Shown here one piece after another: positions 11,621-60,104 of a stretch of 64,000 nucleotides of DNA (the first letter of the stretch is position 1; every line of letters starts with the position of its first letter). The notes beneath the pieces are model-generated. The model did no database searches and was not told the DNA's origin. It was given only the letters and a program-made list of their open reading frames with translations. A program made the translations under genes and the position numbers. Source of the stretch: Paramacrobiotus metropolitanus (Eukaryota > Tardigrada > Eutardigrada > Parachela > Macrobiotidae); contig NW_026570246.1 of the NCBI RefSeq assembly GCF_019649055.1, positions 744,001 to 808,000 on the forward strand, given 5' to 3'.

Positions 11621-14600
11621 TCAAGGATTTGCACTAAAACTGAGTTTCCGCGGGGGCAGCGCCGTCTCTTCGTCGCAGCCGCCGCCCGGGCCCGCACCCA
11701 TCCCCTGATTCGCCTCCTTGATCGGCGACATTACCAGCGAATCAATCCGTGGACTAGACGAATTGAAACTCCTGTCGCCGGCATTATCCCCCGCTTTCAA
11801 ATGATCCGGATTACTCTCGCTGATGTTGTTGTGCTTCGTTGTCAGCACGTTGTCCGAATGCCCGATGGCCGTGGTGAAGAAGCCCACTGGTCCGTTCATG
11901 TACGGACTCGTCACGGCGCTGCTGGCCAGACTGTTCATCGCCGAAAACTGATTCTCCTGATTTAACACGTCGGCGTTGAAGGACTCCTGATGGGTCCAGA
12001 AACGATTATGGGAGGTGTCATCCTGTTCGTGGGATAAGGACGACAATAGCGGATGCTGATCAGGTGTATGAATTGGCGATGTCACTGCGGATGTCTGTTT
12101 GGAGGACGATTCCGTTACTGTTTGCAGGAACATGTCCAGTTCATGGAAATGCAAAGCGTTGTGCAGTGTTTCCAGTGAGTGCACGTTCGGCACATGCAAG
12201 CACTGATCGCCATCTAACATATCAAATGAAAAAACTAATAGTAATTTTGTTGCACTTTGCGTATATAAGTGGCGCATGTAAAGGTGCATGACGCGTTCGT
12301 TTTAAGAGAAGCAGCGTAGACAATTTTTACAACCTGTTGAAAATTAACTAAAAAAAGTGCAGTAAAATTAAAACCGAAAAGGTTTTCGAAAAGTTCATAT
12401 TTACCCTTTTTGTCTGTTTTATCATCCACTTTATCCAAGCTCGACGCGGAGCTGACACCTTTGATTACTGCCGTACTAAATACCCGATTCATAATTACAC
12501 CACTGTCGCTGATTTTGGTGAATGTCGACCGATCATAGCGAGTTTTGGGGAAATTTATGGTGGAATTCGAATCCAAGTTATCCAACCATCCTGCATTCCA
12601 AGCAGTTAAGTTTAGATATGTGTATCATTAACCACCGTGTTGCACAAGGAATCTTACCATCGGCCAAATGAGACATAGACGTCGCAAAGCTTGAATTGAT
12701 TTTCTTCGGTAAGGACGGTAGATCATTAGGTTCATTTTTCAAGGTAGTGGTGCTGGCTTTAGTAACCAAAAAGTCGATCGACTCATTCTAACAATACAAT
12801 AAATACTATAATGATAATTCCAATCTAAATTAATTTTCCATAACAAAAATGTGTCAAAGTGAAGGGTCTTCTTACCGATGCCGATTTGCTGACTTTACCG
12901 ACACTTCCGACGGTACGAAATCCCGGACCCTCCGTATCTTCCACATCCTCATTGCGCAGCATCATTCCCGGGCTGAAGTGGATTTCAATATGGAAGCGTT
13001 CTTCGGAACGCAGCTCCTTGTTAGGATCTTCGTACATCATAATGACAATCTGCGTGAGGAAATTGAACTCGGACACCGTCGAAATATATTTCATGGCGCG
13101 ACTCCACTGTTCGTCATTTCCCTGCAATCGTTTTCGGATTATCATATTAAACAGTCCTGTCGGCTGCGCTTAATCGTTTTCTTGTGTACCCCGATAAGCC
13201 CGCCAAACCGCAGCATATTCATCAACGAATGTATATGGCTTTCGCTGGTAAAATACAGTCGACTGCGGACCAACCGACCAGGTGAGGCAACATTCTGTGA
13301 AAACCTGCAGCAAAAACAATGCTTAAATTTTTTACAAGTAGTAAAAAACATTGCAAATATATTTCTAATTCTAGAACAACCAGTGCACAAATTGCATGAA
13401 CTAATAATGAATTCCATTTAGGTACTGCTCGTTCCATATTTTCGGTAGATAATAATGTATTAGTGAAACAAAAAGACAAATTGTTAAAGCATTCTAAAAT
13501 GTATAGTTACTTCGCAAAATCTTTTCGTCTACTTAATTTTGTTGGTGCTTTCTTAGCGAATAAGGGTGTAAAATGGAGGTAGACTATTAAAACTTTGTCA
13601 GTAAAACCACGGAAGACCGCCTAAAATCTTTATCATTTATCTTGGCCGAAACCTTTTCGACACCAACTACTCCTAATCGCAGCAGTTAGCTAACCTCGGA
13701 TGTAAGCGATTGATGTTCTCCGGGTCATCCTGGTAGTCAATGACACGCTGCAGATCGGCCCTGATCTTTTTCAGCAGCGGAGTCGCAACTCCCTACGGAC
13801 ATACGCAACTGTACGCTATTCATCCGTCACAGCCAGCTCGATCAGATAAGACAATATTCCAACCTGCGCAATCGCCAACTTTTCTTTGGCCGTGATCCCG
13901 TACTCTAGCGGCACAACGATGTTGGCTAAATTGCGACCCAGACTGAACAGCTGCTTGGCATTGGCCGACCGACTAATCCACTGATTGTGATGAATATCAA
14001 ATTTGATGCAGTCGTAGATATCCGGGATCTTGGTTATGTCGAAACTACCATCCTTCAACCGGAAGTCTTTCTCCAACTTTCCCCAACGACGCTGAATTAA
14101 ATCCCAACTCTCACCGCTGTACAGCGTGGGAACTACAACATGCACACATCATTATCCCTATCGATCGTCTGAATACATTCTTTTATTCCTTTACAAAATC
14201 CCCTCAACAATTTCAAGAAATAATTACCAAATCAAAGCATCCCCCAATACGGAAATGTAATTTGTCCAAAAGCAATATTCCTGTAGATTATTTTTACGCA
14301 CTTACGAATTCAAATAATCCAAAATCTACCTAGTCAAGGGATGTACATAACTAATCAACCATGTCAAGCAAAATTTGAAACGAGAAAAGGAAGGCATTGG
14401 TAGCCCGGTAGAATAATAATGAGACGTCAGTGAAAATACTGCATATAAATATGATCGAAATGAGAATTACTAATTCTACTGTACAGGATAAACTACATTT
14501 ATCAAAAGACCTACCGTCGCTATCCAAATTAGCGGCTTTTTCCCGAATGAACGCATTTAGTTCTTTGATGCTTTCATGCATCTGTTCGCAGGCTTTCACG

Positions 14601-17600
14601 GGATTCTTAATGACGTCCATGGACGCTTTAATCGCCAGAGAGTTCGTGGGATTTAAAATTTCACAGTCTTCATCCGTAAAATCACGATCCTGTTTCATAA
14701 TGGCTTTCAGCCGTTTTTTAACGCTATAACACATAAACCCCATTAAACAATCTGCAGATCGCTACAGCAAATGTGATCATCAGCACCAGTGCACAGACCT
14801 ATAAGCACAGCAATAAGCGGTATACGACCGGCCCAGCAGTGGAGTAAAATCTACCCTAAAGATCAAATTCAACCACCAAAATAAAAACCTGCATTTTCTT
14901 CATATGGAACACGTAGAACAAAAAAAACGTTTTCACACCCTAAGGAATAGTCTAATTGTGTTAGTAAAAACAGTGAGTTAAAACAAACAAGTTCTGCCAC
15001 CTCGCTGTGCACCATTTTTCCTTGAAACCCGCCACCGCCGCGCTCTGGCAACCGCAAGTCCATCACCAAACGCAAAAACAACAAGACAAGAAAAGGAGCA
15101 CACGCACACAGACACACAGCATGCGAATAACTTACGCGTTCTCATGCTCACGTGCATCCAAATCATTATCAAGTAGACCGTTTGTGTCAGCAGATTTCAC
15201 CATCTGCACCAAGATGGGTGTCAATTCGCCTTCCAGTGCCAAGAATCCCTAATCAACACCAGAACAACACAAAGAAATTCAGTCACAAGTCATGTTGAAC
15301 TAAATATCTGCTACCAATATCAAGCGTTACCTTGGCAAATGCCGCAGCTGTGGTTTGCACTCGTCCTTCGTCCGATGCATAAATTTTGAGATCATGACGA
15401 AATGTACTATGTAAACGGAGCAATCCATGACCTTTTTTTCGGGAAAATTCACCCGATCCAGGGTACATGCAACGAAACATCTGCCCCAGCTGCTCAGACT
15501 GGTATTTTCCGAGAGGAGTCAGTTCACCGCCCCACTTCATAATCAAAACTAGGCTTCCAGGAGGGATGCTGGTTTCGGGGTCGATTATCACAGGAGCTAA
15601 AGCACAAAATATCACGTTCAACTGTTCCCAATAATCGCTTATACGGTTTACATGTTTCTTTCAATACTAATTCATATTAATCAGCACAGCTGGTATCTAA
15701 GATGCAAGCAAAAATAGACACTACTTATAAAACTTATAGGAACTCGGAGCAACGGTTTTACGGAGCCACTAGGCAGAGTTTCCGAAGGCAGCATAAAACA
15801 ACTTGGATAAACAAATCGTTATGTACTCGTACCTTCAGATCGACAGGGCGAGTCGGTGCGGTCTATGAGCTGATACTTAATCTGTATTTTCCTGTTGATC
15901 CCACTGAAATGCCCATACATTTCCAGTACAGCCTTCAGCTGCTCCAATTTCAGCCGTTTATCCCTGACTTCAGGCTCATCAGCACGATTGGCCAACAGAT
16001 TCCTTACAATATCCAATATTTCCTGTAACTGATTGGGTTTCTTCAATTTAATTTCTCTCCCATCGGTCTCAAATTTTCCCCCAAACTTCTCGAATACTTC
16101 AAAGAATACCGGATGGCGGATTTCCATTTTCATCTTCTGCTTTGGAGTACGATCACCGTGCCGGATGACAGCGACTACACTGCGCAGCTCCATTTCTTTT
16201 CCGAAAGTCGTAGTGACAATGGGAGGGTCACCCAGCTGGTACGGCATCGCCCACTGGATGTGCAGCTGGGGCGCCAAACGCCGCAGAATATTGTTAGCCA
16301 CAATTTTCGCACAATCGTTGTAGTAGATCATAGAGTTCTTTACAAAGCTGAACCCGTTTACATCACAGACATATGAGCGACCACTGGCACGCAGGAGATC
16401 AAAACCGCAAACGGTTTGCTGTAAACCCAAAAAAAAGATATTTACAAAACCAAAAACAGGGTAAGTTGTGCGGACACAAAATTATAAATTCAGATCACAG
16501 GGCAAAAATTACTGTGCAAAACAACTGGCTATGGCACCGTAACTGCCCTAGTACGAATATCCTTGGATAAATGTTTTAATTAAGGGAAATTTTCTTGCAT
16601 AATTCGGAACTTAAAGATGCATCCCGCTAACTAGCCATTTTTTGCTTGCTATTAATAGACAACCGAGCTCTGGAAGTTGTCTGACAGACAGAACCATTCA
16701 TTTCCGGACTTCACCCGAACCCACCTTGAAGGCAATGCACACCCGTCTGGCAATTAATTTCTCAATGTTATTGAGTATAACGGGAAAACGAATTTCCTTT
16801 CCCTCTTTATCTCGCTCCACGACGCCATCCAGCGCCGGGGATTTGCGCGCCTCAGCGTGCGCGTATTCGGGACCAACAGTGTACACTTTGACGTCAGTGC
16901 CGTCGGTAGGCATGAATTCCTCGTAGATATAGGAACCGGTTTTCCGGACTTTACTCTCCGATGAATATACACTGCTACGGCTTCCAATCTACACAAAAAC
17001 AAAACAGTCCATCAATTCCGGCGATTGTAACCATTGCCAGGGCAATAAGTGTCGCTATTAACCGGATAGAATAGAGCAAAATTGAACACCTCATCTTTTT
17101 AACCAGCGACATTTCACAAACAGCCACGGCTAACAATGTAATCACATGTCAACAGTGGAACGATAAAAAGGCATTGCGAGGCAAAGGCCCTCTGCGTTTT
17201 GTCAGCAAGCAATACCGAGCATCAAAAGGCGACCCGGTCGGTACAAGTGTATTGGAAAGTGTTTGAAAATATCGAATAACGATTATTCGGCACTACTAAG
17301 CTTAATAAACAGACAACTGAAGTTCCCATCCACCAACAGAATCAAGCCATATTTGCAAGCCAGCAGCTACAATTAAACGTGGATGCAACTGGTTCACGAA
17401 AGTATGCACGCCACCTTGTGACTTTGTAGTTTGTATTTAACAGCCATGCCAAATAAAACACGACAGAAAAACATAAATTAACTTGCTCTTGAACCAACGC
17501 AAAAATCGCACAAAACTAATTTCTCAGAAACAGTTGAAAAGTAAGATTATTATCGTGAATGAACTGATAATCTAATACGAGATATTAATAATAACGCATA

Positions 17601-20600
17601 TAATATTATAGTGAGAGGTTTCGCTCGGATAAATGTGAAAGCAGTTCCGCTTCACATTCAGCCGTGACGAAGTATAACCAAGGTCGACAGGAAAATTGGA
17701 TGAGAGAAGTATTAAGTAAATCAACACAGACAGACACGAATAATAGTAACCGGAACCGTACCTTGCGAAAGAGTCTCTGGCTGCCACCACCCGCCGCCAT
17801 GGGATAGTAGATGTACACATTATGATCATCAGCACAAATGGGTTTCTCCACAAATGGCTTATTGAAGGTAACCCCATTAACCACCACGTAATCGTCGTAT
17901 TCCTCGATGTGCGCATCATCCGGATTTCCGCTTTCCCGATCCAACACAGCGTAGCGCGGCACATCAATGCCCTCCGACTTGAGCAACTCGTAGACTTTTC
18001 GCCTGTTTAAAGAAAGCTGACAAACCGCAAGAAATCGGTCTGCATTAAAAGGCGAACCTTTACACATCTACTTTAGGGACTAAAACAGATCCAACCATTA
18101 AAGGCATTTGCAAAACATCAGAACATCAGCATTCATTCTAACATACATTCAAATGATTTAATATAAATAAATGTAACTGTACCAACGCATTTATTAAAAG
18201 TAATATCGCAAAGCACACCCAGACTTGTACATACGAGATTGCTAATCCATCGACACTTATCTTAAGACACTTATTTTAAAACGTTAAAGTCAAATTAGCG
18301 AAACAAAAAGCGTAAATCTCAATACAGATGTAAGTCATGTTATTAATAGTTACGTCAACTAAATAAGGCACATTAATTAATTACAAATTGTACCTTTATC
18401 AGATTCGCACTCTGCTTACCTGTCTTTAATAACGTGCTGCATTTTAAGATCATTAACCACGAACGGTTTCCGCAAATCTGCGTAGCTGATGGCTTTGTCC
18501 AGTGGAAATCTTTCCGACTGGAAGCAAATGAGAGCATCCACGACCGGCCATTTTTCCACCGGATCATGCAAGATTTGCTGCTCATCAAACACCAGTGTCT
18601 TAATCTGGTCAAACTCCTGCGTTATGCGTCGTAGTATTTCTGTCATATACTTGGACTTGGCCTTTTTGGCCTACAAACATTTTGCATCAAACGCCATACC
18701 AATAAAATACAAGACATAAATTCGAAACAACCAACCATGGCACAAACGCCCAGTGTAACGTAGGGCTCATGGTCAGGTTGACCACCAGATGACGGCGAGG
18801 AAGCACTCTGTGGCTGCAAGGAAAAACGACGAAATGATGCTTTCGGCCGGAATGCCATGACAGGGATAATGTATAAACATATGAAGCTTCACATTTTCCC
18901 TTGTTTGATGTTTTCAACCAACCCGGCACGATCAGACTGCGACTACACATGACTGGATGATAACACGCGGTTACGCCGTACACAGGCGGCATTACGAGAA
19001 AAGATGCTATGTATGCGGTTTGCGATTTTTAGAAGTCCCGCCCAGTACAAGCGACAAGCTGGTGGAAGGACCTTTCTGTGCAAAACAACAAGTGTTTACG
19101 GCTCGGATCAGACTCGAACAGTTAGAACAGGTTAGGTATGAGTAGTTAATAATGCTAATTATAGACAGCAACCAGAGCGATTATTGCCGAAGGCACAAAT
19201 GCGTGATAACGCATCTCCAGAAATGCTTTGTTTTCTTTGGAGTTCTGCCCGTATGATCAAATAACCGCATTGTTAAAAACATTAAAATGGAAATCGAATG
19301 CACAATGGTATCTATCAATCACTCTCACAAATAACACCTTCATTCAGAAATCAATTTCGGCAATAATCTAAAAATTCAGAGCATCTTGTTCCATCTAGAG
19401 TACAGAGCGCCATCATATTCGATACCAATGAAGAGTATTCGATAGTATATATGTCAAATGTAAACTGGCGCTAAATTACTTCCTGTATAAGAAATTTGTG
19501 CACATTTTAATCAGACAAGGTAGAAGAACCATGTCTACGTAAACAGTTTCTCACAGAAAAGTTTCCACAAATTTTATTGGAACTTCTGCGACATTGTTTA
19601 ACGACAGTATTAAAAGGCAGATTCCATTCAAATCCACACCCGTATTAGCAAAACACTGCTTTTAAAAAAAATGTTTTGGTAGTGTAACCATCTACTGCAT
19701 ACATAATGCAAACGTTTTCTTGCTGTAAAACGTGTAGCGAAATGATGTACTTACTTACAGTAGCTTATTACACCCAGTTATTTATTGTATTATATAACGT
19801 ACGCTCGTATAACAACAACGGATAGTTTCAATACTGCAAACCAAGTACCAAACCAAGTTCAGTACAAGTTGGCGGGAATTAAAGGGATGCTAGTCACGTT
19901 TTTAATAATGAAACATTTTTCAATTATGCCGTATAAACAGAAGCAACCTTAAAAAATATTCGAAAGGTTCTATTTTAAATTCCACACACGTTAAAGATCT
20001 TGCTGCAGTTTCGTTAATTAATGGAAGAGTAACATTAGCCACGGCCCACAAACACAAGCTTTCGAAAAGAGCAGTCAATGCACTGCTACAAAGTACGTCA
20101 ACAAAAACATCAGACAGGAATCAAAATGCTTGGACTTCGCAGCCTCTTAGCTTACGAACTGCTGCAGGCAATCAAACACAGCGAAAAGATGAATCACCGA
20201 GTAATCACACCCAAGTTCATCAAAGCATCAGTACGATATTCACACAAACCACTACCGTCACCTCGTGTTACAAGATAGCCCTCTCAAGAATTAAACAACA
20301 CTATGTACCTTCGTTCCAAATGATATTATAAGAAATCAAGAGTTAATGCAATATTACTTATAGGAAAACTGATAGAAAAACCATCCAAAAACAGCGCATC
20401 GAAGAAATACTAGTCTCTCCACCACGGAAGGGTTCAGGAGGCCCTTACGAAAATTTCGAAAAAACGTGAACCCTCTCGCATGATCTTCCTGCCTTCGTGT
20501 CACAGAAAACTGCAGAAAATAGCGAATTCTCTAAAAACAGGAAAAACGACAGCAACTTACCAATTCTGCCTGATCTTTCGATGATCCGCGCGACAATCGC

Positions 20601-21406: not shown

Positions 21407-22187
21407 TCGCGAAATCCAACTGCTCTAGCCCCAACTAGATCCCCAGTCCTCGCGAGTCACGAAAGAGGAAAACGAGGGAGATATCGCGGGAAACAAATGG
21501 AAAAATATTCAATAACGATAACAGGGCTCAAGTCTGATAGGAGCCCTGAAGGTTTATCCAAAGTACTGTAACTTCAAGTACTAGTTAACGTTAACTAGTA
21601 CTAGTTATAGTAGTAACTAGTTAGCGATAACACCACGATCATAAGGATGGGTTGACCAGGATCTGGAAGATTTCTTCGGCCTGAACTACTGCTACCGAGG
21701 ATTATAATTTTAATGAACGATGAAAAACGATGGAAACATCAGTGAGCTTTGACGCAATACGTAGCACAAAGCACAATAGTGATAAAACGATCTTAAAAGA
21801 ATCTATGGATAATAATCATAACATTATGAAATTATCAGTTTGAATTATGGACCGATTTGTTTTAATACGGACTGCAAGCATTACAGTCGGGGTTGGTTTA
21901 TCCGACGAGGTGGCGGCCACCTTTCCTGTTGCACTTACGTCTTTAGTAAGTAAACAAACAAAGTAACTTTTGAAATTCTGAAATCTGGAGTAACGTTTGT
22001 TTATGGAACTTTTCGCGTCCTTCGTCGGAATCTCACTTTTTGTTTTAGGTTTTAGGCAGACTTATATTTATCCGCGGATTTACGTAAATCAGTTACATAA
22101 GCGTTCCCGTTTAATATGTGTATTGTTGTTTCTCGTTGAGAATTATAAACGTAGCTACTATTTCATCTAATAAGATTCTAATTCAAC
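21407..22187. promoter_or_regulatory. Divergent promoter region between PPIP5K and the GKAP-Plus3 gene
   Basis: About 780 bases separate the two start codons, which face away from each other, so both promoters and 5' UTRs should lie here. It contains a 26-base perfect palindrome at 21577-21602. No TATA box could be assigned with confidence. Confidence 0.5.
21577..21602. repeat. 26-bp perfect palindrome
   Basis: The half-site AGTACTAGTTAAC is followed at once by its reverse complement GTTAACTAGTACT. Further TAGTA/ACTAGTTA copies trail to 21625. Confidence 0.8.
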
Positions 22188-23921
22188 ATGCCACAAGGCA
22201 GCGAAAATCTACGGATGGCTGGATTTAAGCCTGATGGAACAAAAGACGAGCAGATCAAGTATTTCCGAGATCTTGTGGCACAGGAGGTATCATTTGAAAA
22301 TAGCCTGGCAGAGCAGTGGCAGAAAAAGCTGAAGGAGTCCGGGCCTGGCAGTTCGTCCCCGACCATTACCGAGGATGGTAAGTTGGTCCGTGCGTTTGTG
22401 CGTTGTGCTGATTAGCATGTGTATGATGTGCACAAACACCGTGATGTCGTTCGCTCGCAGGGGCTGACCAGATCCACTTGGCAATCGGACAGTCTCGGCT
22501 CTTTCTTGACAAGAAAATGCAGCAGTTCGTCGGTCTGCTTGATGAGTGCGAGATGGGGAATACAACGACTACCCCGACGGATTTGGCTGGTTTCTGGGAA
22601 ATGCTCTATATGGAGTTAAAGAACATCCATGATCGCTTCGAACATTTGGACGTATTGGCTGTCAATGGCTGGATGACTCTTCCCACCAAAAAGACGGTTT
22701 TTGCTGCGGATACATCAAGTGGTAGTGAGACAGCGGACGGAGATCATGCCATATCTGACGAGGAAAGAAAGAACACTAGTTCATCCACTTCGGACAGTCT
22801 CTCGGATGGCTGTTGTGACTCGGTCGACAATCAGGATGTGGAGAGAAAACCAAATTATCAGGAAGTTGAAAAAATTCTTATCAAGCGAGATCGCTTGATT
22901 GGTTGGCAGTTTTTCCCATTTTTCGAAGATACGGTGAAGGGTTGTTTTGTAAGAGTCTACCATTCCGTCTTGCATAATGTGCCAACGCATTGTGACACTA
23001 TACCGGAGGAGAATCTGCTTACTGATGGATATTACAAGGTAATGTGAGGCTTATGAAAAGCATTGAAGTTATTTAGTTTAAATTTTTTATGGATTTATTG
23101 CTGTGTTGTTATGTTTGATTTATTGCTGTGAAATGAAAGCAGTCAATCAAGTTATCGGACTGCTTTAAACAATGAGAAAGCTGTATTGTGCTTTCAAATT
23201 TTTTATGTTTAGATTGGCAAGATCGTCGGCGTTGGAGAATCAAAAAAACCGTATTCCATCATACTGACTGATCCTCCTGTGCCGTTCTATACCCGAGTTA
23301 CCCTTAACGTGAAGTAAGCGTAAAAAATTTCTTGAATTTCTGTATAGTATTTGACATTTTTCATATTTAATACACCCATCAGTGCGAAATCAGATTCAGG
23401 AAATGCAGCGAAGTGTTCATCGTTTTAGTTTGGCTGTTTTTACTGTTTAAATGTTTCTGATAACTGAGCTGTGTGTCCGCACTTGCATTTTCGTTACTGA
23501 AGTAGCTTTTGCTAATTAAACATTTTGAATGTTCATTATTTTTGTGTTATTCAGGTTTGGTAATCATGAGGAAGAGGTTCTTTTGCGGAATGTTTCCAAC
23601 GGCATAACGAAAGAATGCGAATATACTGCTTTGTTCAACGAACTGGAGCGGTACAAAACGCCCTGGCCCACCAAAACGTTTTTGGAGAAAAAAGAGCAGG
23701 ATTTGCAGCGGGCTCTAACTGCGCTGCTGTACCCTACTTCTGCCCATGTGGCTTACTGTGCAGAACAATACAATAAGTTTCCGAGACGGCATGTTACGAT
23801 GAAAGATGCTGAAAGTGAATTGTCGAAGTTGAGAGATGCCGCTGCTTTGACTGGGGATCAGGAATCTGCTGCACGATTTCAGTCAGAATTGAGCGTGTTA
23901 ATTGAGCGAAAGATGATTTAG
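22188..23921 (+). CDS. GKAP (SAPAP/DLGAP) domain fused to an Rtf1-type Plus3 domain
   Basis: Four exons, 22188-22377, 22461-23038, 23213-23313 and 23555-23921, give 411 aa in frame. Residues about 26-134 match the C-terminal GKAP domain of DLGAP scaffolds and HURP: YFRDLVAQE, AIGQSRLFLDKKMQQF, PTDLAGFWEMLY, LDVLAVNGW. A Ser/acidic linker (136-190) follows. Residues about 203-330 match the Plus3 domain of Rtf1: RDRLIGWQFFPFFEDTVKGC, then GKIVGVGESKKPYSI and VLLRNVSN; a helical tail (KDAESELSKLRDAA, GDQESAARFQSEL) resembles the region after Plus3 in Rtf1. In Rtf1, Plus3 binds the phosphorylated Spt5 repeat and single-stranded DNA. Both domain ends lie in the single uninterrupted exon 22461-23038, so the fusion is not a splicing artefact. 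The N-terminal histone-modification domain of Rtf1 is absent. Function is unknown; a chromatin or spindle adaptor is inference. Confidence 0.85.
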
Positions 23922-24207
23922 GATTTGGCTGTGCACACCCCTGAAAACTTTGTGCAAGCAGCCGCGAAAACAGCAGAGAACAAAGGGGAACCCACAGCGG
24001 AAGACAAAAAGGGAACAACTGTCCTCACTCACTCACCGCTCTTAGTAATCCGCTAATCAAGCCTTATTGATTTTGTTTGTTTTCTGTGCGACTTTGTACA
24101 GTTGGTAATTTCTCCATCGAATTAACGACTTAATAGCCAGTGCCCCATCCCGCAAATCAAGGCCAGCCAGCAAACCACCCTCTCGCTGAAATCGAGCCGG
24201 CAGATAA
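23922..24207. other. 3' region of the GKAP-Plus3 gene
   Basis: Follows the stop codon; probably 3' UTR. No other feature seen. Confidence 0.4.
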
Positions 24208-24851
24208 TTTCACCAAGTCCGAGTATGTCTAACATCATTTGCCATTGGGCATTGGGCTGCGTATTTCGAGGATCAGTATATTTATGATCCGGAGAGTAAC
24301 CGCATATACCTGGTGGTGCGCGATGGGCAGATGGACAATGTGTCGGCCGCGCTCATAGCTTCTCCTTTATTACGGTGGGATATACCATAGTTATATAATA
24401 TGTATAGCATCGCAGACATAAATTAATTGTGGTACACATATGTATTATGCATTACACCCATGCTGGATAATATTAGTAACTGAAAGATACATTTTCATAT
24501 AAATGCACGCATTTCAACAACGCAATTGCAACTTGAGTACCCGTGCCCTAACCTTATATTTATATTCACGTAAATAAACGAACAGTTAAGCGCTCAAAAT
24601 TATTGCATACTTGCGTTCGATCACAGTAGTCAAATCAGTATATAAATAATGTAATAGAGATTAAGTGGAATGCATTATATCTGTCCGATATTTTCAGCCC
24701 GCAGCTGGAGGAACATGGCATCGGTTTGGTTTGGGAGTCAATTGGGACACGTAGTCGAAGTTCCTTTCCCGAAGATGGGTCGGCGCTTTGCCAGTCTAAA
24801 TTCACGGGCGTTATCCATAACCCGACTGAATCGGAAGGAGAAGGCATTTAA
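24208..24851 (+). CDS. Two orphan coding-like exons of unknown product
   Basis: An open stretch to 24374 (reading DQYIYDPESNRIYLVVRDG, then MDNVSAALIASPLL) ends at a possible donor (TACG|GTGGGA), and a block at 24698-24851 preceded by ATTTTCAG continues in the right phase (PQLEEHGIGLVWESIG) to a TAA. The composition looks coding and the phases fit, but there is no start codon in frame and no upstream exon was found. It may be the 3' end of a gene with distant exons, alternative last exons of the GKAP-Plus3 gene, or a relic. Confidence 0.3.
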
Positions 24852-36836: not shown

Positions 36837-38604
36837 CTGCGATTAAGAAGGGGATGTCACCGATATGACAATAATGAGGGTAGCGCAAAAAAGTGGAATG
36901 CGGGCACAACACTTGAAATTTGTTATCCTGGCGAGTAAGTAAACTGCGGCAGCTAAGGTCTAATAAGGACTGTAAAGTGTAAGCACTGTAAGGGCCTTAC
37001 AGTTAGGCCCAAAGGTTCGTAATCGTCAGTTGTCAAATACTGCAGCACTTTTGCCAGGGTTACAGATCGTCCGCAAAACGAAGCACACAATGTATGATGA
37101 ATCGATGATACACTCCTGGAAATCTCGGCTGCTTTTATAAGTCTTACGTTGACCTCGAGATGACTGATCCGGGTAACACGAAATACAGGTATTCGTATTT
37201 TTTTTGAAAACTGAGAAAAATTAGAAAGCCAAGCGAAATGCGCGGGAATTGCCCCTGGATATTCGGAGACCCGACTTTAGCTAGTGCCCGATGGCGGTCG
37301 CCAACCGGAAACAAACGAAGCGGTCCTTATCATCTTATGCCTTCCTATATATTGACCACGAAATACGGGCGCGAAAGCGCTGTTGTTGCTCAGTTGGTGG
37401 TTTTATCAACTTGAAAAGATTTTTTTAAAAATCATAATTATTATAACACGTAGTAATCGGGATCCTAATTCGCTCAGCGGCGCAATGTAGGGGGTGTCAA
37501 CTGGCAATTTTTTGGAATTTGACTCCCCTTTCTTAAAACGTTTTGTACCCCCTGTCAGAATTGTTCGATTGGTATAAGTCATTCCGTAATCTTTGCACTT
37601 CATTTTAAGTTTGAGCCTTTAATTTTTATTGATACGTTATTTTTAAGCGAAAGATTAAAATCATTACTGCAAGACAAAATCGGTTGTCGTTTTGATTAAT
37701 GTGCTTACAGCTTACTGTCTACGTCTGTAGCCTATGCAAATCCATCCATTCATACAGTGATCCACCGGGCGACAATTTCAACTTTTTTTCTAATTTTGGA
37801 TTGCAGAGGTCAGCTGGTCTGGTCTCTTGACTTTCAAAACATATTGCACGCTTTAATTCTTCCTTGGAAACAGATGCCCTTTGTCTTTAGAGAATTTAAG
37901 GAATTTTTAAGCACTGTAAAGTGTAAACAGGACTTATTTATTACCATGTTTTGTGTGCGATAGTGGTGTTAGAAAATATTATGATAACGATATTTTCGTA
38001 GAAACGGAAGGACGTTCAGTTTACAATATGGACAAACTGATAAACCACAATCTTGGTCTAGATCTAGTTGAGCCACTTTCCAAGTTGATGTCAGTAATAA
38101 GTTGAAAATATAATAAATCTTTAATATTTCCGAGTGAGTTAAGCAAAGGAACCGCTTGTCCGCGCAGCCGCTTCCGCCTCATACGCGCCGACCAGATGAG
38201 TCATTTGATTGACATGAGCCATCGCATTCTTGCTTTCGCGTAGACGTGTGCGTCGACATTTTCCACCTGAGCATAACTTGCTTTTTTGACTTCCGACTTC
38301 TTAGGAGTGTGTATCATCTGCGGTAGATCTATTTGAGAATCCATTACCTTCGTGGAAAGCGAGAACAATCATACGATTTATTGCAGCACGCCTCTGTATC
38401 ACATGTGGTATCAGTTTTGCTGGTTTTGTAATTTTGTTCCAGATTTTTCATTTGGATGATCTGATCGAAGAAAATACTCTGCGGTCACATCAGCTGCACA
38501 TGTTTTACTGTGAATAAGGCGAATTCAATGCTTGCACCTTGTGTGGATCTTGAATTCTTGGCTGATTTTGATTTACGTTTAAAGTAAATTTTGTTGTTGA
38601 TAAA
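36837..38604. promoter_or_regulatory. Divergent region between MCMBP and EHD genes
   Basis: About 1.77 kb between two outward-facing start codons. It holds the two promoters and one coding-like stretch on the - strand (38139-38344, listed separately). No clear core promoter motif was recognised. Confidence 0.4.
38139..38344 (-). CDS. Coding-like small frames, product unknown
   Basis: On the - strand an ATG at 38344 opens a 47-codon frame (MDSQIDLPQMIHTPKKSEV...), while the next frame, open from 38300 to a stop at 38139, reads RRTRLRESKNAMAHVNQMTH and then an Ala/Glu-rich end. Each half looks coding and they overlap with a one-base shift. Either a short exon boundary is missed or it is a frameshifted relic. 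It is not recognised. Confidence 0.25.
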
Positions 38605-41282
38605 ATGTTACGTTGGATGCGAAACGATGGAGGGAAGGGTAAGGAACCCGAAGTGTTCTCGACGGTAGTGGACGGCCTGAAGAAACTGTACCGTCAGAAC
38701 ATCCTCCCCTTGGAAGAACATTATCGCTTCCATGACTTCCACAGTCCGCAGCTCGATGACCCGGACTTCGATGCCAAGCCCATGATTTTGTTGGTGGGAC
38801 AGTATTCAACCGGAAAAACAACTTTTATCCGTTATTTGATTGAACAAGATTTTCCGGGAATGCGTATTGGTCCCGAACCGACAACAGATGGATTTATTGC
38901 CATCATGAACGGCGATCAGGACGGAGTCATACCAGGCAATGCGCTGGTTGTCGATCCTAAACGACAGTTTAGAAAACTCAGTAAATTTGGCAACAACTTC
39001 CTCAATCGATTTCAGTGCTCTTTGGTGAATAGTCCAGTGCTGGAAAGTGTGACGTTCGTGGATACTCCTGGTACGTTGTGGTAGTCGCGTAAAATTCTGG
39101 AAAGGTGTACTCGTAATAAAGCAGGAAGAGTGCAAATTAGGGATCATCAGATGTTACGTTATCCCCATTCCCCAGAATATAGGTCGATGGCATAAAATTA
39201 GATCTTGTTTTATTTCTTGTTGTTTTGTCGTACTGCATATTTCGCTGGCTGCTGTATTACCTGGTAACAGTGATAAGTGATGGTGAATTTTGTTTTTACG
39301 TTTTGGTTGGCTTCTGTAAAGTGTAAACGTTTTAAAAATTACCAGAATTATTTATATTATGGTTTCTGCGAATTTATTTTGGTTAATTGTGGAATTTTTG
39401 GCTATGACAGTAGTGATGGGTTCCGTTCTATTGGTAATAAAATTGTAGACCGCACAGTACACGAGTTTTTCCTCTGCTACTGAGCTACTCTCTGAATTGC
39501 TCATGTGTGAACTGTGAAGTATCTGTTGTGAATAACATATTCGCCCGAGGCGCTATTGTGAGTTCATAAAAGAATCTTGGCGTTCTGTTTCCGTTCCAGG
39601 GACATAGTTTTAGTAACAGATTCGCAATCTGAGTATTACTGAGTAGACATCCACTATCCGCTGTGTTCCGAGTTGTACATGTCGCATATGTTGTCTAACT
39701 TTTTATGATCCCTCTTTATTTCCGCAGGTATTTTGAGTGGCGAGAAACAGCGCATTGATCGCGGCTATGAATTCACCGGTGTACTGGAGTGGTTTGCTGA
39801 GCGCGTGGACCGAATAATACTCTTATTTGATGCCCACAAACTGGATATCAGCGATGAATTCCGTCGCGCTATCGAAGCATTACGTGGCCATGATGATAAA
39901 ATACGGATTGTACTGAACAAAGCCGATATGGTTGATCATCAGCAGTTAATGCGAGTGTATGGAGCGCTGATGTGGTCATTGGGAAAAGTGCTTAACACAC
40001 CGGAAGTGGCGCGAGTGTACATTGGTTCGTTTTGGGATCATCCGCTACACAATGACTCTAATCGGCGCCTTTTTGAAGCGGAGGAGGTTGACTTGTTCCG
40101 AGATATTCAGAGTCTACCAAGAAATGCCGCTTTGAGAAAACTGAATGATTTGATAAAACGGGCACGCCTTGCAAAGGTTCGTAGATACCGTATGATTGGG
40201 GTTGTTCTGCTGATTGTAAGTAAGAAATAGTCTGTGTGGAATTTTATCTTACACAGTCTATTGTACTAAGCACATAATTCTACTGATTTCTACACAAGAG
40301 TTGTGCTTGCAATAAGGGTTAGAGTATTGTTGGTAACCTAGTGGACTTTGTACTTTACCTTAACGTAAGTAATTGTCAATTCAAAAAGTGCTTTATTCAA
40401 TTTTGTTCCAGTATTATTTTGTTGCTGTTTTTATGTTGTCGGCTTCACTTTGCTTAGCTGTGCGTTTGTACACGCAGTGGGTACCTTGGCGCTCAGTTTT
40501 CAAGAGTACACGATGTGGACAATACAGAAACGTAAAACTAACGCGAAGAAAATGTTTGCTTGCAGGTGCATGCCTACATCATCAGCGCGCTGCGCAAAGA
40601 AATGCCAGCGGTTTTCGGCAAAGACAGCAAAAAGAAAGAACTCATTGACAATTTGGCTCAAGTTTACACCCAAATTCACAAAGAGCACAACATTTCCCCG
40701 GGTGATTTCCCTAATCTGCAGAAAATGCAGGAAGCTCTTCGTGATCAGGACTTCACAAAGTTTCACCAGTTAAATCCCAAGCTAATTCGCAATGTTGACC
40801 GAATGCTGGCTGAGGAGATATCCGGTCTGATGAACATGATCAGTCTGGAAGAATCCCGTCAGCCGACAGAACCAGCCGTCAAGGGAGGTGCCTTTGATGG
40901 ACTGACGAAATCTCCATTCGGAGTGGGCTACGGTGAGGGAGCGAACGCCGGTCAGGATGCACCGGAATGGATTGTCAACAAAGACAAGTACAAATATGAC
41001 GAAGTGTTCTATATGCTCAATCCGGTTGATGGGAAAATTACGGGAGCTGCGGCCAAGGGTGAAATGATTAAGTCCAAGCTCCCTAACTCCGTATTAGGCA
41101 AGATATGGAAGTTGTCGGATGTGGATAAAGATGGAATGCTGGACATTGAAGAGTGGGCGCTGGCTAATCATTTAATCCGTATCAAACTGGAAGGAAATGA
41201 GCTTCCTGCAGAACTTCCGGCACATCTTATTCCACCGTCCAAGTCAGGAATCTATCCGCGTCTTGGGAATGGAGAAGCTTAA
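38605..41282 (+). CDS. EHD1: EH-domain-containing ATPase (EHD1/Past1-like)
   Basis: Three exons, 38605-39070, 39728-40176 and 40566-41282, give 543 aa (human EHD1 is 534). EHD proteins are dynamin-like ATPases that tubulate endosomal membranes and drive receptor recycling. Visible features: the N-terminal segment, the P-loop GQYSTGKT (65-72), PEPTTDGF, switch DTPG (153-156), NKAD (219-222), the helical membrane-binding region, and a C-terminal EH domain beginning near DAPEWIV with the EF-hand loop [13 protein letters not shown]. The EH domain binds NPF motifs. Both introns are phase 0/1 and in frame. The gene converges on EIF1AD 500 bases downstream. Confidence 0.95.
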
Positions 41283-50000: not shown

Positions 50001-53000
50001 CTTTACCTAACCACAATCAAAGGGAGAAAAACTGCTGAGAAAGCCGTTCAAAGTTTGCGGCACTTCGCCACGGGTTTTACCTACCCTAACAGTTTTTGGT
50101 ATTTCTCTTGGTCTTCCTGCAGAGTTTTCGTAAAGCACAAAATATAATCAAATTTGGAATTCTTTTCTCTCCTAATTCCAAGTACGACACTACTTACACA
50201 AGTAACTTCTTCATGATGCTTTTCTAGAAAATTAACTCTCGATAACTAGGTGGAAAAACCACAAAGCTGCTCAAGGTGCCAGACGGTAAAAAATCGAAAA
50301 CTTCTTATAAAACTCTATTGTTGTTGGTACAACTTGAAGTTATGGCTATTCTGTTTAACGCTTTTCCCAGTTCTTCAATGAATTTTTTGCTTCTAATTTC
50401 TCTAAGTAGTTTATATAATTGCTTATACAACAAAAGATACATCACATATCTATTACTTCAAATGGCAGGGAGGCAAAATAGGGAAAATTACTTTCGGAGC
50501 GTCCTTTGTAGTCCGTTTGTTTTAAAACGATATCCCAGATTCAATATTAACTAAGAATTTCATAACAGCAAATTTCCATTCAGCTTAAGCCGAATAAAGG
50601 TTTGGCTATTGTATTTGAAAAATAGTAATACTGTTACATCGCACCGGTTGTACCATAGACGTATACAAAGGGCATTCCAAAGGTTTTTTCAGTATTTGCA
50701 TTTTCCGCTCCCAAACCTATTCAACCCTTTTCCCACATTATTTTACTATTCATAATGCCACTCGTTAACTATAATGACAAACTTAATCAACCACGAAATT
50801 AATTAAACTGAATTATATGAATGTACATTAGACAGTCACGGCGCGCATACGCCAATTCCCAAACGCCGTTGCGCAACCGTTAAATTGTCAAGGAAAATGG
50901 CCCGGTACATAGCGTCAGAAATGGTATACACACACTAGACCTTTCGTTTTCGCGCACTTCGAATCACGTTTTTGTAACACTTTATATCATTCTAAAGCTA
51001 AACGATTTGTATACATTGTTCTGAAAACCGTTGGCGCGCGCAACATCCGGGATATGGCGCACTAAAATGGGTGAAAAGTTAAATGCATTGTTGTGTACCA
51101 AAAGTCTGCTTATTACCCGATCTTCTTGAAACTTTGCTATAAAAGACACATGGCCATAAAGTTAAAAGTGAACCAGTTGGCGTCATTGTCAAATTATGAA
51201 ATTTACCGTATCGACATTTTTGGAACATCGATAATAATGTGTGATGCACGGAACCTTTGGCCAGATCAGGATGATTAATAGATCGATTAATTACGTTGCG
51301 GAATATAAATATATCAATAAGGCAGTCGAACCAATGAAACTGTAATGGGCGGAAATGCAAAGACAAAGTCGAGAATTTTGGAGAAATGCAGAGTTAACTG
51401 TCACATTCTGGATCCGCTGCTCTCGTGTAAAAGGAAACTCAGGCCGATGAAGGGAGATTTGACGACATCACTGTCCAGCAAAAACTGTGAAAACAGAATC
51501 GCGCCAACAGAAATCAAATTTCAGATGTATTTCCAGTAGATTTTTTAGTTTGACTGCTATATTTTTTAATTCAGGTTTCAGACACAGTTAAGACACACAG
51601 CAAAGCATAGCTGATTTATAATGTTGAAAACATGCAAGAAAAAAGATGAATTCTGGATGCACACTCAACGTTACTCTGTGCTCACAAGCAAAAGGAACCG
51701 GTTGTGTTTTGATTTCATGCGGCATGCCGTGTTTAGATTCTTTGGAATACTTCTATGCCTTATTTCATTCTGCTACTAGAAGCATACAGTTAGCATATAG
51801 TTTATTTTATTCTAATTTTTTTAAACCAACTGATATTCAAGGTTAGCCGTTACATCTGCAGAGCAGGTAAAGTTAGGTACAGTACTAACAGTAAACAGGC
51901 ACCATCCATGACATGTATAGAAGCTATTATTGTGAATGTACTGCTGGATGTGAATGTAAATTGACCCATGCGATCAAATGAAATTTTGGAAATTATCACG
52001 CCACACAGATGCGCACCAGACCTGGTCACCTAGGAAGCTATTTCCAACGATTTAGCGAAACACGTGCTATTTTCGTGTTACAGCGTAACGTTAAAGCGTA
52101 ACTTGAAAAGCGTAACGCTACTGAAGATACCTGTATTTTTCGTTAACAACTGTAACGTAGCGCGTAAAAAATGCGAAACTCACCCGGGAACATTTTCCCC
52201 CTCCAAATTCAAAAAATCGTCATGTTTTGTAAAATTGTGGTGTACTATTGTGGTATGCTTAAAAAAATATTTTTATCTGCCATCGTCAAGGGGGCGTGGT
52301 CAGACAACATTTAAAAGTTTGCATACAGTACTATCAAATACTGTGTAATGCAGTGCAGTATAAGTTATTCCAAGAACTTAATACAGGTAGTCTACCTGTA
52401 TTAGATATACTATACACTATAGTAAGTATATAGATATTAACACTGTAGTAAGTACTTGGTTATTCGTAATTATTACAGTATGTTGACTTTTTTTCCAGCA
52501 CCGTGGACTTTTGCAGCTGTCGAGTAATGATGTATAAGAAGCCAACGGGCGTCGGCTCGGGCCTGCCTTTGTGTACATTTTCGAAAATTTGTTATAAAGC
52601 ACGTATTGTTTATTAGTAGAAAAATGCTTTTTTGCACAACTTATTGTATACAACAAATTGATGTGTGTGCACACAGACAGCAACGGTGCGACACGACGCA
52701 CGTGGGCTTCTTTTACATCATTACTCGACAGCTCCAAAAGTCCACGGTGTGCAGTAAAAAAAAGTTAACATAATAATAATTACGAATAACACTTGCGCTG
52801 CATTGCATTACACAGTAGTATGTGATAGCATGCAAACTTTTAACTGTTGTCTGGCCACGCCCCTTTGACGATCGCAGATAAAAATATCTTTTTGAGCATA
52901 CTACAATAGTCAATAGACACTACCATTTTACAAAACATGAGAATTTTTTGAATTTGGAAGGGGAAAATGTTCCCTAGTCAGTTTACTTGCAGAAATGTTC

Positions 53001-57220: not shown

Positions 57221-58574
57221 CTGTAATACCGTATCTAGGAAAAATGGCTGTTTAAAAGTTTGCAAAGTCACAGACTGAACACTGCTTTGATTTTGCGATT
57301 TGGGAAGGCACGATTTTCACGCTATCGGCTGTAGTAAAGGGCGATCCATAAACTACGTACGCAGCGAACAAGAGAGTGAGGGGTCCAAAAAACGTGACAA
57401 GCTGTGACGCCTCGGCGAACCCAGGGGGGAGGGTTGGTCACCTGCATGTATTACGATTTAACGAACCAGGGGGGAGGGGTCAAGCAAACGTGACAGACCG
57501 CTACGAGGCGCGGGGGAAAGCTGATGGATAAGTTCGATGGAAAGCGGTCGACGGTTAAAACCGCAGCTTGTGGACCGCAGTCAAGTACAGTGCTACCGAA
57601 AAATGCCGTAGAAAACATTCGACTGACTTGTGAGCTCCCATAAAAGTACTGTACCTAATAAACTGACAACTGAAAGGAAAGCTGGACATCGAATCATCGA
57701 TTACCAAACAAAAAATTTATTGGTATTGTGTTAAATCGAAAAATCGAACACTGTGAGAAATGTACAGTGTAAAAATCTACTGTAACTGGGCGCTATAAAT
57801 ACTTACTCGACTACTCGTATAATTATTTATAGAAAGTGCTAATTTTACACCACCTCTGGTCACTTTGAAGTTTGATTTATGTAAGGAGATTCGTTATTAT
57901 TATATTTCGAAAATAAAACTCTCAGCTTAACATTTGCATCATTTTAAAAGTGTTTTTCTACGCGTAATGTTCTATAGCTGACACTGCCTGACAGTACATT
58001 TGAAATCAACAACTGTTTCCTTATTTTGTTTAGACTTGCGCGGTCTTATCTCACATATGAACACTGCAGAAACCGAAAGGAAAACAACCGTTCTTTTAAA
58101 ACAGTCTGGTTCTGTTTCTCTCCTTCTGCGCAGAATGTCAAAAAACAAAAAGTTGCCTGGAGGGAAAAACTTAACCGAAATCTGATATCAGCCCAATGTG
58201 AAAAACAGAAAATATAGAAATATCTATATTTGTAATCTTTTGCCGCTTTTGCTGTTGAGGGTTGCCTACCGTATCACGTATGCAATACTTTACTCGTACT
58301 GTACTGTACATGCTCGTATAAATATTGTAAAGCGAAAAAAGTTTTGTTTAGAGCGGTTCTATCACAACAACATTTGAAGGTGCATCCTAAAATAATAACT
58401 TTTAATTATTGCCTCCATGGTGTTTACGTGCGATGTGGATTTCGGTAATAAATGCTTTCGGAAATGGACATCGTACAGCGTGCGGTATGTGTACGCCACG
58501 GAGAATGCGGAACGTAGATACATACGTAGTTTATGATTAGAGATTTTGGTTTTCTTATTTGCCCGAACAATATC
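57221..58574. other. Intergenic, with a G-rich transposon-end-like stretch
   Basis: Between 57345 and 57520 the pattern CATAAACTACGTACGC, GGGGTCCAAAAAACGTGAC, CCAGGGGGGAGGG (twice) and GGGTCAAGCAAACGTGAC looks like the ends of DNA transposons and MITEs common in invertebrates. The rest should contain the promoter of the monooxygenase gene. Confidence 0.4.
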
Positions 58575-60104
58575 ATGACGTCGAGTATGGCTGTAATTGG
58601 AGCCGGTGCCAGTGGTCTCGCGTCGTTATGGGCTTTCGAGAAAGCACAGCGCGCCGGTGCAAAGAAACCGGAAATCGTTTGCTATGAAAAACAGAGCGAC
58701 TGTGGCGGCCTGTGGAATTACGTTTGGCGCACTGGACTGGATGAGTTCGGCGAGCCAGTCCATTCTGGCATGTACAGAGGTCTGTGGTCGCTGTCACCGA
58801 TAGAATGTCTGGAGTTACCTGTACCGGGTTATACTTTTCTCGACCATTTCGGCAAACCCATTCCGCCCTGTCCGCCCCGCGCCGTGTTACGGGATTACAT
58901 AACTAGTCGCGTGAAAAAGGGTGTTATGCAAAAGTAAATTCAGTTTAACAGCGTCGTCCGCTGGGTGGAATTTGATGACAAAAGCGACAAATTTACTGTA
59001 ACTGTCAAAGATTTACAAAGCGATATTGTGCACACCGAACAGTTTGACTGGGTGGTGGTAGCCACTGGGCATTTTTCGATTCCAAATTACCCGGAATTTC
59101 CAGGTACGACAGATTTTACCCATAGCCCATAGCAATCATATAATATAGTATAAGTACTAGATACTGATATACATACTGCATACATACGTGATACGAGAAT
59201 GTTCTAAGTTTTTTTTAAATTTTGTTGGAACAAAAATGACACTATTCATTGTATTATGCCATTCTTTTCAGGAATGGATAGCTTCCCAGGCCGAGTAGTG
59301 CATTCTCACGATTTCCGTAATGCAGCAGACTTTGCTGGGAAGCGTGTTCTGATTATTGGCCGAAGTTATTCTGCCGAAGACATCGCGATTCAGTGCTTCA
59401 AGTATAGCTGCCAGTCGGTCACTATCAGCTACCGAAGCAGGCCTTTCGGCTTCAAATGGCCGGATGGTATCACCGAGAAGCCTCTCCTCCGTGAACTTCG
59501 AGACGCAACTGCGTACTTTGTCGATGGATCCAGCGCAGATGTGGACGCGATTATCATGTGCACTGGCTACCAGCACCATTTCCCTTTCCTGTCGGATCAT
59601 CTTCGCTTGAAGACCGCCAATGTGTGGTATCCGTTGGGACTGTACAAAGGCATCTTCTGGCACCACAATACCAAATCAATCTATCTCGGTATGCAGAATC
59701 AGTGGTTCACCTTCCCCCTGTTTGACGCGCAAGCCTGGTATGCGCGTGATGTCATTCTGGGTAAAATAAAATTACCGAAGGTGGAGGAGAGGGAAAACGA
59801 TATGGCAAAGTGGAGTGGTAGGGAGCAGGCATGGACACAGGCCGAAAAAGATGCCGGTGTGTTTATGTTTTTTCAGGCTGATTATATGCGAGATTTGCTA
59901 GACGCCACCGATTACCCGCAGTTTGATATCGACGGAATGATTCGGATCTTTGAAGACTGGGAGCGTCACAAGCGGGAGAAGGAGGGTGTTTTGGAATATC
60001 GGGATCATACACATCGATCCGTTATGACCGACACTACTGCCCGGATTCACCATACGAAATGGCTGCACGAAATGGATGACACGTTGGAAAATTTTGTGCA
60101 TTAA
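58575..60104 (+). pseudogene. Bacterial-type flavin monooxygenase (trimethylamine monooxygenase-like) with one in-frame stop
   Basis: Two exons, 58575-59103 and 59272-60104, join in phase to about 453 codons, the length of bacterial trimethylamine monooxygenase (Tmm), which oxidises trimethylamine to its N-oxide using FAD and NADPH. Motifs: FAD site [34 protein letters not shown] motif FPGRVVHSHDF, NADPH site IIGRSYSAEDIA (the usual GxS region with Arg for Ala), MCTGYQHHFPF, MQNQWFTFPLFDAQAW and a C-terminal FRDH-like EYRDHTHRS. Resemblance from memory is clearly to the bacterial Tmm group and not to the vertebrate FMO1-5 type; there is no C-terminal membrane helix. A TAA at 58935-58937 interrupts exon 1 where the family has Trp or Tyr (RKWIRFN region), and the frame continues conserved behind it. 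So it is a recently inactivated gene, a sequence error, or a read-through case. Start: ATG at 58575 (an in-frame ATG also lies at 58533). Confidence 0.85.

Follow-up and report, generated by a model that had tools for sequence, protein, structure and literature searches.

A probable young chimera of a HURP-like GKAP domain and an Rtf1 Plus3 domain, one of five Plus3 chimeras found in one genome

The gene at 22188-23921 of the window (the whole 64-kb stretch of DNA that was analysed, C26:744001-808000 in a genome of 169.8 Mb) encodes, in a single frame, a GKAP domain of the HURP type followed by the Plus3 domain of Rtf1. We call it HURP_P3; the label HURP/Mars is our own, the PDB match being DLGAP5. 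Both parents are found elsewhere in the same genome and introns were copied, and we interpret HURP_P3 as a chimeric gene formed by duplication at the DNA level. Our preferred reading, to which we give a probability of about 60%, is that of a protein-coding chimera in which an Rtf1 paralog without the histone-modification domain (HMD) later received a HURP-like front, and whose product is an elongation factor docked through Plus3, probably in the male germline.

Gene model, domains and parents of HURP_P3

Four exons of 190, 578, 101 and 367 bases, separated by introns that all have GT-AG borders, form a spliced coding sequence of 1236 bases including the stop, which is free of internal stop codons and specifies 411 aa. 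The features, in window positions, are the following.

22178-22677, + strand: duplicated segment of 500 bases, with 92.8% DNA identity to the HURP-like donor at C26:560 kb
22188-22377, + strand: exon 1, with the start codon and the N-terminal portion of the HURP-like copy (frame, GT donor; 92% identity to C26:560 kb)
22311-22690, + strand: GKAP (GH1) domain, aa 42-140, split by intron 1 (PF03359, 45.3 bits)
22378-22460, + strand: intron 1, part of the copied segment (6 differences from the donor intron in 83 bases)
22461-23038, + strand: exon 2, 578 bases, with the GKAP end, the Rtf1-type linker and the Plus3 start (single open frame)
22677-22678, + strand: fusion junction between HURP-derived and Rtf1-derived parts (end of donor similarity)
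22685-22864, + strand: acidic and serine-rich linker, with homology to the stretch that precedes Plus3 in the own Rtf1 of this genome (alignment, shuffles)
22865-23642, + strand: Plus3 domain, aa 199-319, exons 2-4 (PF03126, 54.7 bits)
23039-23212, + strand: intron 2, phase 0 (position shared with Rtf1 and with all four other chimera models)
23213-23313, + strand: exon 3, Plus3 (gene model)
23314-23554, + strand: intron 3, phase 2 (position likewise shared with Rtf1 and the four other chimera models)
23555-23921, + strand: exon 4, with the Plus3 end, the following Rtf1-type region and the stop codon (gene model, RTF1 match)
24573-24578, + strand: possible polyadenylation signal (the only AATAAA/ATTAAA in 23922-24800)

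Rechecking of exon sizes, GT-AG borders and frame bore out the coordinates and the in-phase closure at 411 aa given in a preliminary description, as well as its observation that a single 578-base exon, open throughout, carries the GKAP end and the Plus3 start in one frame. That description had also claimed an in-frame joining of a GKAP domain to an Rtf1 Plus3 domain and had named a sub-threshold profile score as evidence against it. Pfam gave 45.3 bits for GKAP (E 1.1e-11) and 54.7 bits for Plus-3 (E 1.7e-14), both above the curated cut-off, which is 27 bits for either family, so that no such score was found. Furthermore, the front matches human DLGAP5 (E 1.2e-13) and DLGAP1 (E 7.9e-9) among PDB sequences, and the back matches RTF1 (best E 7.1e-8); the joining, with a GKAP of the HURP type, is supported by the profiles and by these matches. 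Six further PDB sequence matches, to the nuclease EXOG (E 0.28-0.40), are at chance level. Scanning of the window with Rfam and for tRNAs returned no matches. Elsewhere in the window, neighbouring open frames resemble, by eye, a diphosphoinositol-pentakisphosphate kinase (14351-18067), a P450 (26048-27748), an EHD protein (38572-41282) and a flavin monooxygenase (58530-60104), and positions 50883-51161 have 75-78% DNA similarity, on both strands, to another locus that we examined (L006), probably as a dispersed repeat.

The donor of the front was found by a DNA search of the genome with 21900-24100, which returned two matches, the gene itself and C26:560278-560790 (92%). The BLASTN match over 22178-22677 spans exon 1, intron 1 (77 of 83 bases identical) and exon 2 up to 22677, and a looser BLASTN alignment that starts at 22166 has 472 of 513 bases identical and is gap-free. 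In bins of 15 bases, identity is 12-15 of 15 across 22178-22672, at most 8 upstream, and 9, 5, 8, 7, 4 and 2 downstream. Similarity begins about 10 bases upstream of the ATG of HURP_P3, which lies 206 kb from that of the donor (C26:560301). Beyond the match the donor sequence differs from HURP_P3, and HURP sequence outside the copied segment is absent from HURP_P3. Further downstream in the donor, an open frame with KIREAIEKARAAKAA is HURP-like by eye. A Pfam GKAP search of the genome, in which weak matches may be missed, identified three places, namely the donor, HURP_P3 and a locus on C24. Based on these alignments, we regard the GKAP front as a recent copy of the nearby HURP-like gene, and HURP_P3 as a young chimera. 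An origin as a retrocopy was rejected, given that intron 1 was copied and that two Rtf1 introns were kept.

Over 135 codons, the GKAP part and the donor differ by 18 synonymous and 9 non-synonymous changes (dS 0.248, dN 0.029), which gives a pairwise dN/dS of 0.116 (Z 2.96 for a test against 0.5, roughly the ratio expected from one free and one constrained copy). With all 9 non-synonymous changes placed on the chimera branch, the neutral expectation is about 40, or about 19 with this branch assigned a quarter of the total divergence (P 0.008), and neutral simulation of the coding sequence left it stop-free in 0.5% of runs when half of dS was applied and in 6% when a quarter was; these ratios and simulations compare two sequences, and their outcome depends on how the divergence is split between both branches. 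We consider that this pattern shows constraint on the copied GKAP part. Two of the replacements, R69H and Q115E, change residues common to the donor and human DLGAP5, and binding by the GKAP domain of HURP_P3 may thus have changed.

The separate, normal Rtf1 gene that the preliminary description proposed to look for is present in the same genome (C26:716 kb), at C26:714.9-718.0 kb and about 50 kb from HURP_P3. Its upstream exon and Plus3 region align with human RTF1 over chain positions 170-572 (E 3.4e-50), a span that we take to include the HMD. The view that HURP_P3 lacks the HMD and is not plain Rtf1 likewise holds: aa 42-140 are GKAP, matches to RTF1 and to the genome's own Rtf1 start only in the linker, and no RTF1 alignment to aa 1-150 was found, the RTF1 match beginning at aa 152 or later. 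Plain Rtf1 was therefore rejected, Rtf1 being a separate locus and HURP_P3 being devoid of the Rtf1 front. HURP_P3 aligns with the acidic linker of the own Rtf1 from residue 140, no more than about four residues past the junction. Linker and Plus3 start together have 38 of 97 residues identical, and for the linker by itself the alignment score is 75, compared with a mean of 41 for shuffled sequences, 0 of 500 of which score as high. Both Plus3 introns agree with those of Rtf1 in position and phase (0 and 2), and the two proteins have diverged to 36% identity over 210 aa. Based on the linker alignment and the shared intron positions and phases, the back half is Rtf1 minus its front, with the cut lying in the linker ahead of Plus3. 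Beyond the end of the alignment, 123 residues remain in the own Rtf1 and 6 in HURP_P3, so that the C-terminal Paf1C-interaction region, which an excerpt of PMC6405060 places near the C-terminus of Rtf1, is absent.

A family of five Plus3 chimeras

A Plus-3 family search of the genome gave seven matches at six loci, four above the cut-off as single exons. All of the non-Rtf1 Plus3 loci found (5/5, in a search that may miss matches) are chimeras, with four kinds of front: the HURP-type GKAP, a nearly whole UFC1 E2, half of an ABCF ATPase (two loci) and zinc fingers of the ZFAND5 type. Donors for all four were located elsewhere in the genome. With Rtf1 included, C26, a contig of 1.32 Mb, holds four of the six loci and C108 the other two, a clustering that could stem from local duplication bias rather than from selection for fusion. 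Protein searches of the genome with two Plus3 halves revealed no further gene, the matches on C74 and C95 having E values of 0.6-0.7, and a scan of viral contigs for relatives gave 29 pattern matches, of which 0 were confirmed. For the odorant-receptor family 7tm_6, which is regarded as insect-specific, the genome gave six matches, four of them above the cut-off, as would fit an insect.

UFC1_P3 (C108:138 kb; 425 aa, three exons) scores 277.3 bits for UFC1 and 45.9 bits for Plus-3 in Pfam, and its donor is the UFC1 gene at C108:170 kb. It keeps 166 of the 168 donor residues, the last two being lost, and 164 of the 166 aligned residues are identical despite a dS of 0.194 (ratio 0.027). Residue 116, the last of the GGKIC segment, is presumably the active-site cysteine. 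UFC1_P3 also carries upstream donor DNA, about 600 bases of it with 78% identity and a further 200 or so adjoining the ATG. Inside this copied upstream region, within the locus C108:136000-143000, about 1.5 kb is absent from the donor and is perhaps a later insertion.

ABCF2_P3a (C108:362 kb) has nine exons and encodes 594 aa without a stop (ABC 77.4 bits, Plus-3 54.6 bits); its PDB matches are ARB1 and ABCF1, the label ABCF2 being ours. ABCF2_P3b (C26:1047 kb) has the same layout and, without its first exon, scores 63.9 bits for ABC and 61.9 bits for Plus-3; that first exon contains two stops, indicating a damaged locus. The likely donor of both is at C157:116 kb, with ratios to it of 0.19 (a) and 0.16 (b), and, since the fusion point lies behind the same ABCF2 exon in both, the pair probably goes back to a single fusion that was then duplicated. 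Two more Plus3 back-half fragments adjoin ABCF2_P3b at about C26:1045454-1045645, with 67% and 51% identity to ABCF2_P3a, suggesting that partial copies were made there. Upstream of ABCF2_P3a (C108:356500-365500, locus bases 50-2230), long open frames resemble, by eye, a gene of the exportin type.

ZFAND_P3 (C26:177 kb), which we named after its PDB match, aligns over residues 2-214 with ZFAND5 (AN1-type zinc finger protein 5; E 1.3e-16). Its Plus-3 (31.2 bits) and A20 (23.8 bits) scores are over the cut-off and its AN1 score (16.9 bits) is below the cut-off of 27.9. The donor lies at C26:90 kb, with a ratio of 0.60 over the first exon of ZFAND_P3, and the splice at the junction is uncertain, the candidates being an intron of 68 bases whose donor site is weak and one of 35 bases. 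Given the stops in ABCF2_P3b and the relaxed front and uncertain splice of ZFAND_P3, the family is not clearly functional throughout.

Two trees of the Plus3 halves group HURP_P3 with UFC1_P3 (support 98/96 and 97.8/99) and ABCF2_P3a/b with ZFAND_P3 (100/99 and 100/100), ZFAND_P3 and human RTF1 being long branches and ABCF2_P3a/b not being resolved in the first tree. Rooting of the five chimeras against the own Rtf1 has a support of 31.5/46, so that the trees are compatible with one origin from Rtf1 as well as with two. In the first clade the join lies within an exon, and in the second Plus3 begins at a phase-0 splice acceptor, so that exon shuffling fits the latter. The Plus3 halves of HURP_P3 and UFC1_P3 have 79 of 195 residues in common and a dS of about 1.8, near saturation, whereas the fronts differ from their donors by dS of 0.25 (HURP_P3) and 0.19 (UFC1_P3). 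The Plus3 halves therefore look older than the present fronts, which were most simply added to Plus3 genes already in existence.

Proposed role and competing explanations

According to an excerpt of PMC12807453, the Plus3 domain of Rtf1 binds Spt5 and the HMD acts with E2 enzymes in H2B ubiquitylation. We infer that an Rtf1 paralog would first have lost its histone-modification front, keeping the linker, Plus3 and the adjoining region, and that it would later have gained, by DNA-level copying from the HURP-like gene, the segment of 500 bases that begins shortly upstream of the ATG and extends to the GKAP end. The resulting protein would dock on elongating RNA polymerase II via Plus3, would be unable, being HMD-less, to promote H2B ubiquitylation itself, and may bring the binding partner of its GKAP domain, a HURP partner, to the elongation complex. 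By analogy, HURP_P3 is most likely a specialised elongation factor, and one that most likely works in the male germline, as in Drosophila. There, Rtf1 has three testis-biased paralogs (excerpt of PMC12324932), and tPlus3a/b are enriched in spermatocytes, lack the HMD, pair with tBRD-1 and are required for full male fertility (excerpt of PMC6405060).

A bolder generalisation is that, in this lineage, HMD-less Rtf1 paralogs repeatedly gain fronts that stem from housekeeping genes and that are thereby brought to polymerase II during transcription, an effector swapping that we consider doubtful. If true, UFC1_P3 would be its clearest case, a UFM1 E2 replacing the E2-partnering domain of Rtf1 and leading to co-transcriptional UFMylation, and HURP_P3 would be the same design with a module from a spindle protein. 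UFMylation of histone H4 has been reported (excerpt of PMC6423285). A somewhat stronger competitor, still unlikely in our judgment, is that the fronts were kept for the start codon, and perhaps the regulation, that they provide, the GKAP, UFC1, ABC and zinc-finger parts being passengers. Four unrelated kinds of front without an obvious common function, the upstream donor DNA carried by UFC1_P3 and the zinc-finger front that looks relaxed (dN/dS 0.60, AN1 below its cut-off) would fit such a capture of promoters or start sites. However, the HURP copy begins about 10 bases before the ATG, implying that no promoter came along, and the GKAP and UFC1 fronts are constrained at the protein level (0.116 and 0.027).

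The same constraint makes it improbable that HURP_P3 is a decaying pseudogene of recent origin, as do its intact frame and splice sites and the gap-free alignment of 513 bases to the donor, even though the two stops in ABCF2_P3b indicate that decay occurs among the Plus3 chimeras and Drosophila chimeras are described as mostly short-lived in an excerpt of PMC3395120. A selfish factor, in which a Plus3 protein without the HMD would rival Rtf1 on Spt5 and act as a dominant negative or drive in the germline, would be consistent with the missing Rtf1 front, with a protein end about 117 residues short of the point that corresponds to the Rtf1 C-terminus, and with a multi-copy, diverged family that lies partly on the contig of Rtf1; yet a simple competitor would not need the conserved GKAP, UFC1 and ABCF fronts, and we regard it as very improbable. 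Scarcely credible is an artefact of assembly or annotation, with two separate genes or a misjoin taken for one gene: both domains lie within the one open 578-base exon, the window and the loci behind the gene models contain no N bases, and the identity of the copied part to the donor is 92-93% instead of 100%, a difference of about 7-8% rather than 0% that argues against a misjoin to the donor locus.

Relation to known systems

Like Rtf1 of the Paf1 complex, HURP_P3 has the linker, Plus3, both introns, unchanged in position and phase, and the region after Plus3; unlike Rtf1, it has GKAP in front, no HMD and no Rtf1 C-terminal end. With HURP/Mars/DLGAP5 it shares the GKAP domain, keeping only the segment up to its end. 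The Drosophila genes tPlus3a, tPlus3b and Rtf1t (CG12498) are likewise Plus3 paralogs of Rtf1 that are HMD-less, testis-enriched and fast evolving (excerpts of PMC6405060 and PMC12324932). No captured front is described in these excerpts, whereas here a GKAP, UFC1, ABC or zinc-finger front replaces the HMD side; moreover, testis expression is known for the Drosophila genes and would be predicted for HURP_P3 by analogy. In Drosophila, other Paf1C subunits too have testis paralogs, whereas a Paf1 search of the present genome gave four matches, all at one locus, and an expanded second Paf1 complex is thus unsupported.

The preliminary description had named no known protein that joins GKAP to Plus3, which fits our searches of the open-access literature on this pair and on Rtf1 paralogs and chimeras, where no such protein appeared in titles or the opening parts of abstracts; an excerpt of PMC13289920 gives Plus3 alone as the commonest detected layout of Rtf1 and mentions no fusion. 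Chimeric genes and Rtf1 paralogs are kinds already known. What is new is that each Rtf1 paralog detected in one genome (5/5) has a borrowed front, with the four donors still present. The five chimeras offer a natural experiment on whether fusions are kept for gained expression or for a gained domain, and, with the UFC1 front nearly unaltered at one extreme and the zinc-finger front apparently relaxed at the other, the question is directly testable.

Adh, as their names tell, was a parent of Adh-Finnegan and Adh-Twain. Together with jingwei, for which Adh is given as parent in an excerpt of PMC6881317, these Drosophila genes are likewise several chimeras from one parent, and they are also named in an excerpt of PMC3395120. 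The Adh fusions are retrogenes, whereas those described here are intron-bearing copies made at the DNA level, within one genome and with Plus3 as the fixed half. In plants, ZMP-like proteins (excerpt of PMC9699677) and TZP (excerpt of PMC12177312) likewise combine Plus3 with other domains, namely zinc finger, SWIB and GYF in the former and zinc fingers in the latter. As far as the PMC9699677 excerpt describes them, however, the ZMP-like proteins represent an old architecture with domain loss, whereas the five chimeras appear to be recent captures from living donor genes.
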